Shown here piece after piece: positions 20,101 to 25,250 of a stretch of 35,552 nt of DNA. The notes below the pieces were generated by a model that saw only the letters and a program-made list of their open reading frames with translations, was not told the origin of the DNA and searched no databases. The translations under genes and the position numbers were made by a program. Where the stretch lies: the NCBI GenBank assembly GCA_021845665.1, contig JAJZVO010000045.1, positions 1 through 35,552 of the forward strand, given 5' to 3'. The first letter of the stretch is position 1, and each line of letters starts with the position of its first letter. The stretch comes from Bacteroidota bacterium (GTDB lineage Bacteria; Bacteroidota; Ignavibacteria; Kryptoniales; JAKASW01).

Positions 20101-20483
20101 TAGTAAAGGTTGGCCTTCATGTCCTTCGTGAACACGGCGCCGAGGCTCAACACGATCGAATCGACTTGCAGTTTATAGTTTGTTTCCGGGGAGGCTTCGT
20201 ATTGGATATAGACGCTGTCCAGCTGGGTTAGCTGGTTGACAGGCCATGTCGGCATCTTGATTCGCTGGGTATAGAAACTGGCACCCGGCGCCGAGTAGCT
20301 TCCATAGACTAGGTTACTTGTGATGAATTCGGGAACGCCCGATATTGCGCCTGATACCTGCACGCTTCCATCTGTAAGGCAAGGCCAGGTCACAACGGAC
20401 TGAACGTTTTGAGCGAGCGCCAGACTGCTTAATGAAAACAGGATCATGACGGCAATCGTGGATCTTCGTAACATGGATCTCAT
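17142..20483 (-). CDS. Secreted multidomain pectinesterase with T9SS-type tail
   Basis: A 1113-residue exported protein. From ATG 20483, chosen for the GGAGG 8 bases upstream, it begins with a signal peptide (MRSMLRRSTIAVMILFSLSS, ending LALA). Two copies of an unfamiliar module follow (about 25-195 and 200-370; each opens W-P-L-DG--QVSG and contains LYYS-DPTF), then two beta-sandwich repeats (about 378-575; each has YGVCW or RGVCW and FYLRAYATN or YHVRAYATN). The carbohydrate esterase family 8 domain covers about 578-895, with QAVAL, QDTYY near 715, VDFIFG near 741 and LGRPWQ near 803 supplying the catalytic Asp pair, Arg and Gln. An FN3-like domain and the LLQNYPNPFNP sorting tail (from about 1028) end the protein. 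It should remove methyl esters from pectin outside the cell. An upstream in-frame start at 20588 lacks a signal peptide at the right place and is rejected. Confidence 0.93.
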   Translation of the reverse strand: MRSMLRRSTIAVMILFSLSSLALAQNVQSVVTWPCLTDGSVQVSGAISGVPEFITSNLVYGSYSAPGASFYTQRIKMPTWPVNQLTQLDSVYIQYEASPETNYKLQVDSIVLSLGAVFTKDMKANLYYSTDPTFSNKTQISYTTTGTDSVFLNSSQLDTIHAAVNDTVSQGQNFYFRIYPWVDSSSSVSGKYFAPQNVKIYATAIPIPVNAGAMWPLMSDGNAQVSGLINGGTVTYAGGLRNYGFGSNGARWTTTTGAWPAESSPNMTRYAQFTVAPQTGGTFYAKAITFSQNYEFSKNLRMALYYSNDPTFATSTFVADTTVPQAKTTYTYAIGDTIGTGDTLYVRFFPYDLATEGSYKLIDVDSVEIAGATTGLAILPPTVATTAPSYVSTTFFTTGGNVTADGGGTVTARGVCWNTTGSPTVSDSHTSDGTGVGQFTSAVTSLAKGTKFYLRAYATNIGGTGYGAEDSVSTLAAIIPPSVTTSTPTNVLAVTATGGGIVTGWGGDSVSAYGVCWDTTANPTTSDPKTVDGTGIGSFSSGITGLKPGTLYHVRAYATNSAGTGYGSDVTFTTQVAQPDTTVIVAQDGSGNYKTLQAAFNAVPYNYTGKWTIYVKNGSYNEKDTLQAGQSNVILEGQSEDSTIIWNDDYGDKYGSGNPGTSGTFTVEINANDFIAKNITFQNTYSPQPGVSGTQAVALEVNGDRQEYIHCRLLGYQDTYYTRGGSGVGRIWMKDDSIEGSVDFIFGRDIVVFDSCVIHETRNDGTLTAANTDPTTLYGYVFRNCKIIADSIGYDGNPVSTFYLGRPWQSSPRTVYIKCYEPANLDSTGWLAWNVTPGLYAENQCYGPGSGAKYRVNWSSQLSDSVAATYTLKNIFSKNSASSSLMVANWMPPDATPFDNAPFPDSSYTVDVTSFTSSVNTGIVTLNWQTSEEVNNLGFNILRKGPNDANYVMIASYVNDPSLVGQGAGTTNSVSSYAYTDSTVQKGDTYSYELQSVSIYGVKKQFSELSVTGVEGKPVTPKRFALLQNYPNPFNPTTIIEYDVPYTSRVVIDVYDVLGRKVATLVDGTQSAGEYHVTFNGSRYASGVYFYRMIATSSQGNRFSSIRKLLLLK

Positions 20484-20740
20484 TGCCACTTCCTCCGTGG
20501 GTTGTTGATGAGTTCTCTCTTTGAGCGGCTTACCGGCACGCGGGCTTCCGACGCCGGCAACCGTCGACTTAAACACGCAATTGATCACCTCATCCAGTTA
20601 AGGAGGCTGGATCTGTGCGTGGCGACAATCTCCCTCCAGTTGCAGCGTTAAATTCTAATGTGACGGACAAAAGTAAAACTGTTATTAGGCGGGACGTGTA
20701 ATGATGCGGTAAACCGGAGATACCGGAGGACGAAACGGAG
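20484..20740 (-). promoter_or_regulatory. Long leader and probable promoter region of the pectinesterase gene
   Basis: The 257 bases between the LytTR gene stop and the pectinesterase start contain several paired elements on the minus strand: an exact 6-bp inverted repeat (20592-20597 with 20607-20612), a 7-base direct repeat TCCAGTT on the plus strand at 20593-20599 and 20635-20641 (42 bases apart, near four helical turns), and a longer stem near 20528-20558 with a 7-bp outer helix. No coding frame with a ribosome binding site is seen. It is a reasonable place for LytTR-type binding or for a structured 5' UTR, but no riboswitch class was recognised. Confidence 0.4.
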
Positions 20741-21556
20741 CTAGAGAGAGTTACCGATAACTTTCTGGAAATTTGAGCGGAATGACCGGCTGAGCTTGAG
20801 CCGCTCGCCGGTTTTCAGAAAGACTTCGAAATCACCATGCTCATTCGGACGAAGGGCTTTTACCTTATCGACGTTCACGATTGTCCTGCGGTGGATACGG
20901 ACAAATTTATGCGGATCGACTTTGCTTTCAAGCGAGTTCATTGTCTGCCGAATGATATATTTGCGCGAATCGGAATGGACATAAACATAATCACCCGCCG
21001 ACTCTATCCAGTCTATTTCAGAAACCGGGAGCATCGAAATGTAGTCGTGAGTTTTTACAGCGAGGCGATCGAGGTAATTCCGCGGATCGCGACTGCGTTC
21101 TCCGTCAACCGACTCTTCCGATCCGATGGCAGGATTCAGATATTCATTTACCATCTTCTTAAGATTCATTGCGTAAACTTCGAGATGGCGCCGGCCGAGT
21201 TGGGAAAGCGCTATTCTGAGAGTCTCTCTGAACCTTTCCTCGCCGATAGGTTTCAGAAGATAGTCCAGTGCGTGAAACTCAAATGCCTTAACTGCATACT
21301 TATCGTATGCCGTTACGAATATCACGATCGGCACCGGATCGACGCTTACACTGCGGAGCACTTCAAATCCGTTCATCTCCGGCATCTGAATATCGAGGAA
21401 CAACAGATCGGGCCGGAGTTCTTCGATGGCCGATACCGCTTCTGAACCCGAAGAGGACTCCCCCACCACTTCGATCTCCGGAAATTCCTTAAGGCGGATC
21501 CGTATCCCTTCACGCGCGTGAGGCTCATCGTCAACGATCACAGTCCTTACTTTCAA
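20741..21556 (-). CDS. LytTR-family response regulator
   Basis: A 271-residue two-component regulator. The receiver (about 1-120) has Asp9-Asp10, the phospho-acceptor Asp55 in LLFLDIQMPEMNG, Thr82 and Lys102 in LLKPI, so it looks fully functional. A linker of about 40 residues leads to a LytTR DNA-binding domain (about 165-270) with DRLAVKTHDYI, SEIDWIESAGDYVYVH and FVRIHRRTIVNV. It starts at TTG 21556, overlapping the TGA of the upstream kinase gene (TTGA), with GGAGG before it. It lies directly between the kinases and the pectinesterase gene. Confidence 0.94.
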   Translation of the reverse strand: MKVRTVIVDDEPHAREGIRIRLKEFPEIEVVGESSSGSEAVSAIEELRPDLLFLDIQMPEMNGFEVLRSVSVDPVPIVIFVTAYDKYAVKAFEFHALDYLLKPIGEERFRETLRIALSQLGRRHLEVYAMNLKKMVNEYLNPAIGSEESVDGERSRDPRNYLDRLAVKTHDYISMLPVSEIDWIESAGDYVYVHSDSRKYIIRQTMNSLESKVDPHKFVRIHRRTIVNVDKVKALRPNEHGDFEVFLKTGERLKLSRSFRSNFQKVIGNSL

Positions 21557-22752
21557 TTCGATCTGCCTCCTGCGGCTATCAGGTTCTGACCCGCTGTCCG
21601 GATGGGAAGAGTCATCAGGACAACTCTGCTTCCATCTGCATCAACCCCCTCATAAAACTGATGCCTATTCTGATAGATTTGTTCCAGATGAGCACGGGTA
21701 ATATTGAAAACACTTTCCCCCACATTCTCCGCCTGAATAGCACGATGCATTTCGTTTCTTCTTCCTCTGATGATCAGCTTTAGAGAACTCTCCTCCCTCA
21801 TGATCTTTATTTGAATCTCGCACGGCTCCCCCGAACTTTCAAGGTTACGGAGAACCAATTCTTCCACTATCGGCTGGAGTATGAAATTAGGCACAATTTC
21901 CCTAGCCGCGTCTTCATCTATCTCCTTCCTGATTTCAAGTCTATCTCTGAATTTCACTTTCTCGATAGCGATGTAGTTGTCAAGGAACCTGATCTCTTCT
22001 TCCACGGTACTGTACTCCCGGTCGTTTTCATACACAGTCGTCCTCAGGAAATCACTGAGGAGAGAAAGAATCCTATTCGCCTCCCTGTCACGATTTTTAT
22101 GCACGAGCGAGCACACCTCACTCAGAGTATTAAAAAGAAACTGTGGATGGATCCGGCTTCTCAATTCGTGAAGATTGGACTTAACGAGCTCCGTCTGGAG
22201 CCGGAAGTACTTAACCTCATTTTCCTGATTCTTTCTCCTGTATTCTATCATGTAAAACCCGAGTAGAAAGAGGACATACGCAACAAAATCTCCCCATACG
22301 GCTGGATTGTTGAAGAGAACGCTGAATACCGTCTCGGACTGCCGCGATCCCAGCACGATTCTGTCCAGACCGAAAGAAGCGGTTTGATGAACGACCGTGA
22401 GGAGAACCAACGTAGTAAGATGTATCAATACCCAGGAAGGAAGCGATTTGGTTGTCAGGGACACTTTTCTCGAGAGCCGTCTAACGGCAAGTGCCGGAAT
22501 CACGAAATACCAGGAGTAGAACAGATTTGAAATCAGGAACCTGAGGATATTTAAGACGGAATGGTCGCCTGAAAAAAACATGTAGAACGCTTGAAGAGTA
22601 TTGACGACAGCTATGAAAGTCAGGACGACTACGATAGGTACGATCAGCCTGGAATCGGATTTCGTTGCGTCGGCAGGTAGTTCACCGCCGTTCGGGGCGG
22701 CAGATCGAAGTTCGGGAAAGAAATCGCTGAAAGAAGTTGAATCAGGCGCCAT
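21553..22752 (-). CDS. LytS-like sensor kinase homologue with degenerate ATP-binding domain
   Basis: A 399-residue membrane protein with four or so N-terminal hydrophobic segments (about 36-165) and a His_kinase region. The phospho-acceptor motif is kept, with His202 in IHPQFLFNTL, followed by FLRTTVYEND and the I-EK--F-DRLE stretch. The catalytic part is not: the N-box asparagine is Glu298 (QPIVEELVL against QPIVENAIR in the neighbour), the G1 box DNGPG is replaced by GRRNE (330-334) and the G2 glycines by GESVFN. It is therefore probably unable to bind ATP. Its ATG lies 11 bases inside the end of the intact kinase gene and its stop overlaps the regulator start. Confidence 0.88.
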   Translation of the reverse strand: MAPDSTSFSDFFPELRSAAPNGGELPADATKSDSRLIVPIVVVLTFIAVVNTLQAFYMFFSGDHSVLNILRFLISNLFYSWYFVIPALAVRRLSRKVSLTTKSLPSWVLIHLTTLVLLTVVHQTASFGLDRIVLGSRQSETVFSVLFNNPAVWGDFVAYVLFLLGFYMIEYRRKNQENEVKYFRLQTELVKSNLHELRSRIHPQFLFNTLSEVCSLVHKNRDREANRILSLLSDFLRTTVYENDREYSTVEEEIRFLDNYIAIEKVKFRDRLEIRKEIDEDAAREIVPNFILQPIVEELVLRNLESSGEPCEIQIKIMREESSLKLIIRGRRNEMHRAIQAENVGESVFNITRAHLEQIYQNRHQFYEGVDADGSRVVLMTLPIRTAGQNLIAAGGRSN

Positions 22753-23893
22753 GAAACGCGACCTTCTTAGCGGCGATCATTTCAATGAATGGAATTTCGA
22801 TCAGCACGCTCACGCCTCCGCCCGCCGGGCTCGCGAGCGAAAAGATGTGGTTCTCTCCGAAGAGCCGCAAGAGCCGTTCGGCGGTGACCCGTAGGCCGAC
22901 CCCTCCGGACGAATTCGATTCTTTGCCCGCCGCCAGGCCCGGTCCATTATCTTCTACTACAATTCTCAGTCTGCCTTCACGACGGCTCGAACTGATAGAT
23001 ATGCGGCCCTTTGACTTCCTGGGGGCAATCGCATATCTAATCGCGTTCTCCACGATAGGCTGAAGCAGGAAATTGGGGACGCTCGCGTTCAGACTATCCG
23101 CGCTGATTTCTTCAACAACCTCAAGCCTGTCGCTGAATCTCACCTTCTCTATTTCCAGGTAATCGTTTATGAACTTCAACTCCTCACTGAGAGTAATCAC
23201 ATGACGGTCGCTTCCGTATATCGTCGTCCTCAAAAAGTCCTGGAGCAGCAGAAGCATCCGTTCGGCCTCGGCGTTCTCTTTTTTCAATATGAGCGTCGAG
23301 ACTGTGTTTAACGTATTAAATAGGAAATGGGGATGCAGCTGGCTTTCCAGCGCGTTCAACTGTGAGAGTACTAGTTCTCTGTGCAGTTGAGTTATTCTCA
23401 ACTCGTCGTCGCTGTTCTTCTGCCTGTACTCGAACACATTCACCGCAATCATTACGGCAAAATAGATGATGAAGTCGAGACCGAGCCATGGATTACGGAG
23501 TATTCGTTTGTAGACGAGCGTCGGGACGTTAAGGTACTGGAGCGAAAGATTTATGACGAGCGAAGCGATCACCTGATGGACGAGGACGAACAGAACCGGG
23601 AAACAGAAATATACACAGATCCAGTAAGTGAACTTCAATCTGCCATTTCTGAAGTCTTTCGAGATTTTGTATATGAAGGGGAAGACGAGAAACCAGTACC
23701 AGAAATAGAAAAGATTGAATGGGATATGCCACCACAGGCTGAAGCGCGTGGCGGTATTGAAGTTGATAATATAGAACTGTTGAAATGCAACCGCGAGCGC
23801 GACGATAGTCAGCGACGCGAAGAGAATACCGGACAGATATCCCTTGAGATAGTGCTTCTTTATGAATTCGGTGAAAACATGTCTGTTTCTCAT
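22742..23893 (-). CDS. LytS/YehU-like sensor histidine kinase (intact)
   Basis: A 383-residue kinase with N-terminal membrane segments (about 20-42, 52-75, 88-118, 138-155) and no extracellular sensor domain of size. The phospho-acceptor His187 lies in LHPHFLFNTLNT. The ATP-binding motifs are complete: N-box VENAIRYA with Asn283, G1 box VEDNGPGL with Asp315, Gly317 and Gly319, and G2 GGVGLRVT. It heads the unit intact kinase - degenerate kinase - LytTR regulator, joined by overlaps. It should phosphorylate the regulator and perhaps the histidine of the degenerate partner. Confidence 0.93.
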   Translation of the reverse strand: MRNRHVFTEFIKKHYLKGYLSGILFASLTIVALAVAFQQFYIINFNTATRFSLWWHIPFNLFYFWYWFLVFPFIYKISKDFRNGRLKFTYWICVYFCFPVLFVLVHQVIASLVINLSLQYLNVPTLVYKRILRNPWLGLDFIIYFAVMIAVNVFEYRQKNSDDELRITQLHRELVLSQLNALESQLHPHFLFNTLNTVSTLILKKENAEAERMLLLLQDFLRTTIYGSDRHVITLSEELKFINDYLEIEKVRFSDRLEVVEEISADSLNASVPNFLLQPIVENAIRYAIAPRKSKGRISISSSRREGRLRIVVEDNGPGLAAGKESNSSGGVGLRVTAERLLRLFGENHIFSLASPAGGGVSVLIEIPFIEMIAAKKVAFHGA

Positions 23894-23966: not shown

Positions 23967-25250
23967 TCAGTGTCTCTCGACTATTTTCAGTTTCAGCCCC
24001 TTCGTCTCGGGGAAAGTCCAGATCCAGATTCCGGTTAACACGGCAAATACCGCGGCGAGTGAAATCCCTCCACCGAGACCGTACCTTTCCGCGACAACGG
24101 CTATGATAACGAGCGTAAAGAATTGGACTCCGCGAGCAAGGTTGAAAGCCGACCCCATGGCAGTGTTGCGGATGCCTGTCGGGTAAAGCTCGCTGAACAT
24201 CCCGGTGCCGAAGCCGACGAAGAACATGAACGAAAGGAGCACTGCCGGGTAGACGACGACATTCCATAGCAGTGTAATCATGATCAGAGAAGCAGCCATG
24301 ATGAAGGAATAGACCGAATAGGCCGGACGGCGGCCGAATTTATCGGCCGCGAAACCGAACGACAAATATCCGAGCAGTCCGCCTGCCTGCGTTACGAGCA
24401 TCCAAATTGCGGACTTAATCATCGGGAAATGGCGCTCCTCGTGAAGATAACCAGGCAGCCAGGAGTAGGTGAACCAGTATGCCGACGTATCAAAAACGGA
24501 AAGAACCAGCGACTGAAGGAAGAGTCTTCTATATTCGTTCGAGAAGAGGAGAAGGAACCTGTTGTTCCACTCCCGATCCACGTTCTTCGCATCGAAACCG
24601 GTCTACGATATCATGGCACGCCTTGCGGTCCACACGTCCGATTCAGGAAGCCTTTTCCTTATGATTATCACAAGGGCTGCCGGCAGCACCGAAAGGAGGA
24701 AGCACGCTCTCCAGCCAATGGCGGGCTCGAGAAATCCTCCCACAAGAGACGCGAGGACGATGCCGAACGGAGCGCCGGTTTGCATGAAGGCTGCGTACCT
24801 CGCCCTCACTTCCGGAGGAAAAGTCTCGCCAACATACGTTTGCCCCGTCGCCTATTCCCCGCCGACGCCAATCCCGGTGATAACGCAGAACAGTACAAGG
24901 AAAGGAAGGCTTGGAGAGAAACCGCTAAGGAACGTGCCAATGCTGTAGGTAAGGATAGTCCACTGAAGAACCTTTCGTCTCCCGTAGCGGTCTGAGAGGA
25001 CGCCCATCACGACCCCGCCAAGCGCCGTTGCGGCGAGCGACGATCCTATTACATAAGACCTGGCAACGTTTGAAAGATGAAACTCTCTGCTTATGGGAAT
25101 TAGAAGGAATGTGAAAAGTACAAGGCTATAGAAATCGAAGACCCAACCCGCCCAGCTCATGAGCAGTATTTCGAAGTGTGTCCTGCCAGGTTTCCTCTGC
25201 TCGCTCAAAAGAATCTGTTCCATACGCCGGCGCCCCCTTTCGTTTGACAT
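23967..25250 (-). pseudogene. MFS transporter interrupted by two in-frame TAG codons
   Basis: Read through, the frame encodes a full-length transporter of about 427 residues with 12 hydrophobic segments. MFS motif A is present as GVLSDRYGRRKVL between segments 2 and 3, and YVGETFPPEVRARYAAF resembles sugar or organic-acid permeases. TAG at 24852-24854 falls in GVGGE-stop-ATGQ, where relatives have a conserved tryptophan, so a single G-to-A change of TGG explains it. A second TAG (24603-24605) lies in the cytoplasmic loop after segment 6 (RRAMIS-stop-TGFDAK). The reading frame is otherwise unbroken, with no frameshift. Other genes in the window end with TAG, so it is a stop here. Likely a recent pseudogene; sequencing or assembly error is possible. 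Confidence 0.85.

Follow-up and report, generated by a model that had tools for sequence, protein, structure and literature searches.

The window, meaning the whole stretch of 35,552 nucleotides analysed here, carries on its minus strand three overlapping genes, referred to as K, D and RR, followed by a repeat element and a pectinesterase gene:

22742..23893, minus strand: K, an intact LytS-type histidine kinase with four transmembrane helices, 383 aa (open reading frame, PF06580 and PF02518 matches, motifs, helix pattern)
21553..22752, minus strand: D, a pseudo-histidine kinase and K paralogue, 399 aa (open reading frame, PF06580 match only, motifs, structure model, D-specific invariant residues)
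20741..21556, minus strand: RR, a LytTR response regulator with a TTG start, 271 aa (open reading frame, domain matches)
20705..20739, minus strand: candidate RR binding site, repeats TCCGTTTCGTC and TCCGGTTTACCGCA, their starts 21 bp apart, directly after the RR stop codon
17142..20483, minus strand: secreted pectinesterase with a T9SS sorting tail (PF01095, E 6e-58; Por_Secre_tail)

The K and D frames overlap by 11 nt and the D and RR frames by 4 nt, with the TTG start of RR overlapping the D stop codon. An earlier note made from the sequence alone had placed three overlapping open reading frames on this strand, and our check of the frames bears out all of its coordinates, while the overlaps support its view that the three proteins are made together. 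It had also described K and D as paralogues over the His_kinase region; they are indeed paralogues, but the similarity extends beyond that region, at 32% identity over 341 aa with the membrane part included. In the 4.6 Mb genome (135 contigs), K and D are the only His_kinase genes found and RR the only LytTR gene found. An Rfam search matched a tRNA alone, and scans for sigma-70 promoters and terminators yielded none above chance. Upstream of K on the minus strand lies an MFS transporter gene (23967-25250) with two in-frame stops; its orthologues in loci L032 and L034 align over their full length, and the window copy is either a pseudogene or a sequence error in the assembly.

By domains and motifs, K and RR are ordinary members of the LytS/LytTR two-component family. 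K matches PF06580 and HATPase_c and contains the acceptor His in HPHFLFN (LHPHFLFN, with the PHF signature), the N-box Asn in VENA (QPIVEN) and both glycine boxes (G1, DNGPG; G2, GGVGL), as a LytS-type histidine kinase should; no 5TMR_LYT or GAF model matched the sensor part. RR has the receiver residues DD, D, T and K and an intact LytTR domain, the features of a LytTR response regulator. Among solved kinase domains, that of GanS of Geobacillus (PDB 6swj) comes nearest to K and to D alike. The two single-protein models, one for each of K and D, are of moderate confidence (pLDDT 73 and 76; pTM < 0.5), and only their secondary-structure order was used; for the window D, the kinase helix and strand order is still present, and the predicted fold matches kinases.

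By comparison, D has lost the residues of catalysis. In the LytS family the phospho-acceptor is the His that stands between Pro and Phe (PMC10653868), as in the RPHFLFNSL motif of AlgZ (PMC4064291). At this position D has Gln204 (IHPQFLFN), the same change as BtsS H382Q, by which phosphorylation is abolished (PMC10653868). The earlier note held that D keeps the phospho-acceptor as His202, which is wrong, as this residue lies two positions before the acceptor site and is H, Q, K or N across the D proteins. Its claim that the N-box Asn, the DNGPG box and the second glycine box are lost is borne out by motif alignment: D reads QPIVEE for QPIVEN of K, IRGRRNE for DNGPG and GESVF for GGVGL, and no HATPase_c model matched. 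Because the acceptor is the His of PHF where D reads PQF, and the boxes are also gone, D lacks the acceptor His, N, G1 and G2, and hence both hallmarks of a LytS-type histidine kinase, the acceptor His and the ATP-binding boxes with their HATPase_c match.

These losses recur across the related loci (see below). The acceptor position is H in 16 of 16 K proteins and in none of the 16 D proteins, in which it is Q, T, A, S, D or E. The N-box Asn is present in all K proteins and missing from most D proteins, with N at the aligned position in four D; the Gly-box residues are kept in almost all K and lost in D. HATPase_c matched all 15 K proteins scanned and none of the 16 D proteins. Loss of the acceptor and the Gly boxes in 16 of 16 loci is far beyond chance. 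Furthermore, mean identity among the D proteins is 34% in the membrane part, 40% in DHp and 21% in CA, and the sharp fall in CA is seen in D alone. In three D proteins (L079, L074 and L075) the CA part is lost or shortened, with 73 residues after DHp in two and 29 in one, compared with about 130 in most. This pattern suits a protein retained for the sake of its membrane and DHp portions. An atypical mode of ATP binding like that proposed for AlgZ was considered for D and rejected, since AlgZ keeps H and N, whereas D is without the acceptor everywhere.

The earlier note had suggested looking for the same three-gene layout in other genomes. A protein search of 61 genomes and then a profile search covering 391 genomes of the class brought up D-like proteins beside K-like ones. 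The DNA around them has K, D and RR in the same order and orientation at 16 loci in 14 genomes from at least four families; one genome (G355) has three such loci (L077, L078 and L084). In the genus of the source organism, 6 of 13 genomes gave a match, and 4 of those have the K–D–RR genes. A scan of genome contigs gave L031 alone, which is the same DNA as the G003 locus. No strong D was found outside the class in a profile search of 395 genomes of the phylum. Within the sample D is never found apart from K, and its frame is open, free of frameshifts, in 16 of 16 loci. On this sequence evidence, K, D and RR are inherited as one unit.

In the tree, the K clade (support 95/90), the D clade (100/100) and the two together (100/100) are recovered, and within the sample K and D are sister clades; one duplication therefore explains both. 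The pairwise distances of K and D are correlated (r = 0.94, permutation p = 1e-4), a correlation that shared descent predicts as well. For the closest pair, dN/dS is 0.15 for D, 0.06 for K and 0.07 for RR, and D ranges from 0.08 to 0.20 over three pairs, with synonymous sites near saturation; D is thus under purifying selection (dN/dS near 0.15). Two DHp-region residues not shared by K, R237 and Y241, are invariant in all 16 D proteins, and E196, S233, Y79 and Y82 are nearly so. D has nevertheless evolved faster than K, with a stem length of 0.75 vs 0.25. Stable retention of D, as the earlier note argued, is supported by recurrence, purifying selection and intact frames.

Other LytS-type pairs were seen in the class. 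In three genomes of one genus, a kinase is followed by a LytTR regulator and then by another LytS-type protein, whose acceptor His is replaced by R, Q or K (L100 2416-5283, L101 3509-6328 and L102 1394-4274). One member of this group was placed in a quick tree and sits far from D, so that dead LytS partners probably arose at least twice in the class. In another genome (G049, L103 3188-6114), a tandem LytS-type pair accompanies a regulator; the second copy has the acceptor His and carries D for the N-box Asn (VEDALRD), and is possibly an ATP-dead, phosphate-accepting partner.

The region downstream of RR, overlooked in the earlier note, likely provides the output of the system in the form of the pectinesterase gene and the repeat element. 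The pectinesterase probably starts, judging from the GGAGGA before it, at the ATG at 20483, although the listed frame begins at 20588. A secreted pectinesterase gene directly follows RR on the same strand in 12 of 16 loci (the window locus, L032, L033, L034, L035, L074, L075, L076, L080, L082, L083 and L084), called by profile match except in L032, L034 and L075, which were called on other evidence. A thirteenth case is L079, where a similar secreted-protein N-terminus is visible by eye before the contig ends. In G355, two of the three loci adjoin a GDSL lipase or a SusC-like receptor and the third a pectinesterase, and L081 has no pectinesterase nearby. Most other neighbours differ beyond the genus; in L082 and L083, the upstream neighbours include GH28 and GH43 genes. 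All 14 genomes with K–D–RR carry a pectinesterase, compared with 56 of 377 others (Fisher p = 1e-11, kinship ignored). The synteny could partly reflect inheritance of one ancestral cluster. The pectinesterase is the likely target of K–D–RR.

Comparison of the stretch after the RR stop codon across the loci revealed two direct repeats of consensus approximately TCCGttTtaTC, 21-22 bp apart, with a motif log-likelihood of 233.7 against a shuffle maximum of 132.8. With a profile trained on other clades only, the window site ranks first of 71,014 window positions, and with profiles from other clades the equivalent stretch takes first place in 10 of 16 loci; in L076, L077 and L081 the element is weak or missing. 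Across the 4.6 Mb genome the window site is the sole match at up to three mismatches, and the reversed control gave none. The repeats of published LytTR sites mostly have 12 bp between them (PMC6193735), and a 9-bp repeat of 21-bp period agrees with this. The element thus shows what is expected of a predicted LytTR binding site, namely direct repeats about 12 bp apart upstream of a target gene, and by its sequence it is a LytTR-like direct repeat between RR and the pectinesterase, hence a candidate site. Autoregulation through repeats before K was also considered, and no such site was seen there. About 31 bp after the second repeat, a third conserved block was noticed by eye on the minus strand (20660-20690, CTAATAACAGTTTTAC; CTCATTTCTGTTT in L083), which could be another half-site or a promoter element.

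It is probable, in our judgement, that K, D and RR work as a three-component system dedicated to control of the adjacent secreted pectinesterase, with D acting as a non-catalytic partner of K. From the anatomy of K–D–RR, the losses of D, the gene linkage and the repeat element, which are seen in the sequence, we infer the following scheme of phosphotransfer, pairing and activation. K would autophosphorylate its own His and then phosphorylate RR. D would pair with K by way of the membrane and DHp regions that the two have in common, in a heterodimer or a higher complex, and would set the activity of K or supply a second sensing surface. Phosphorylated RR would then bind the repeats and raise transcription of the pectinesterase in the presence of pectin or its degradation products. 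In a bolder version, to which we lean slightly less than to its opposite, K–D–RR would be a class-wide three-component pectin sensor whose signalling unit is an obligate K–D heterodimer carrying one ATP site and one acceptor His; half of the classical symmetric kinase dimer would have been replaced by a sensing or tuning subunit, in some species reduced to membrane helices and DHp.

Other roles for D have to be weighed against that of a non-catalytic partner. One of them builds on the earlier note's proposal that K phosphorylates D: K would act on a conserved His of D, and the phosphate would be relayed to RR, as FasC, the pseudokinase of FasBCA, is thought to work. His202 does lie in the H-box region of D, and FasC needs its His246 (PMC12675982); against this, the acceptor of D is Gln, the equivalent H382Q abolishes phosphorylation of BtsS (PMC10653868), the acceptor is gone from 16 of 16 D proteins, and the position of His202 varies among H, Q, K and N. 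Acceptor loss led us to reject this model, which we regard as highly improbable. The note's alternative of an allosteric or sensor subunit without catalysis fits, and its broader suggestion of a regulatory system not yet described, in which a pseudokinase is the partner, is supported; the checks it named came out in its favour, with the layout present in other genomes, selection purifying and the sampled D copies free of frameshifts.

D might instead act as an inhibitor, keeping RR or K switched off at the membrane until the signal comes, as in LytTR Regulatory Systems (LRS), which use membrane inhibitors of LytTR regulators (PMC6193735). D likewise is a membrane protein and is produced along with a LytTR regulator, and the D proteins without CA keep the TM and DHp parts. 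Unlike LRS, however, the locus encodes a complete kinase together with a receiver whose phosphorylation residues are intact, and the repeats precede the pectinesterase, not the K–D–RR operon, so that we consider this role unlikely. The least credible reading takes D for a decaying kinase duplicate that has no separate function. The faster evolution of D and the drift and occasional loss of its CA-like part would suit decay, but the frame is open in 16 of 16 loci, dN/dS is well below 1, D-specific positions are invariant, and D has one ancient origin and is never apart from K in the sample; selection and the 16 intact loci led us to reject it.

K–D–RR is a real, conserved variant of the kinase, pseudokinase and regulator theme, linked to pectin breakdown. 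The variant is apparently undescribed, no paper describing it having been found in a literature search of incomplete coverage. Few natural pairs of an active and a dead histidine kinase have been documented. With its single origin, its presence in many genomes, an ATPase part lost by degrees and a likely output gene, K–D–RR makes the role of a dead kinase in a dimer testable, and it is a candidate regulator of pectin breakdown in a poorly studied class.

Compared with LytS/LytTR systems such as BtsS/BtsR, YpdA/YpdB and LytSR, K–D–RR adds a second, dead LytS paralogue between kinase and regulator. GanS was solved as a single kinase, unlike the K–D pair, and we know of no dead partner for it; nor, to our knowledge, is an intact kinase partner encoded beside AlgZ. 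AlgZ of the AlgZ/FimS–AlgR system resembles D as a LytS-type protein without G1, F and G2 boxes, with four TM helices and a LytTR regulator, but differs in keeping the acceptor His and the N-box (PMC4064291). LRS are two-protein systems of a LytTR regulator and a membrane inhibitor with repeats upstream of their own operon; K–D–RR departs from them in having a kinase and a receiver and in showing no site upstream of K. In RetS–GacS, one kinase is regulated by another via DHp contacts (PDB 7n0e; PMC12148439). Kinase–kinase regulation of this kind is what we propose for K and D. RetS and GacS are encoded by separate genes, involve a hybrid kinase and are not known to have a LytTR regulator.

Dead ChrS of Corynebacterium and DivL of Caulobacter act without an acceptor or ATPase domain (PMC9491836). 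Like D as proposed here, DivL and truncated ChrS are catalytically dead kinases that modulate another kinase, and by this analogy they are a closer functional parallel for D than FasC. DivL is not known to share an operon with the kinase under its control. Truncated ChrS arose in laboratory evolution (PMC9491836), whereas D is a natural, operon-linked paralogue. By analogy, the nearest known system and precedent is FasBCA of group A Streptococcus, for which two-hybrid data indicate a heterodimer and the kinase domain of the proposed pseudokinase is dispensable (PMC12675982). Both systems combine, in one operon, two sensor-kinase-like membrane proteins, one with a non-functional kinase domain, and one regulator. 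They differ in that FasC keeps and needs His246, whereas D has lost the acceptor in every genome, and in that the output of FasBCA is the FasX RNA, whereas the candidate output of K–D–RR is a pectinesterase.
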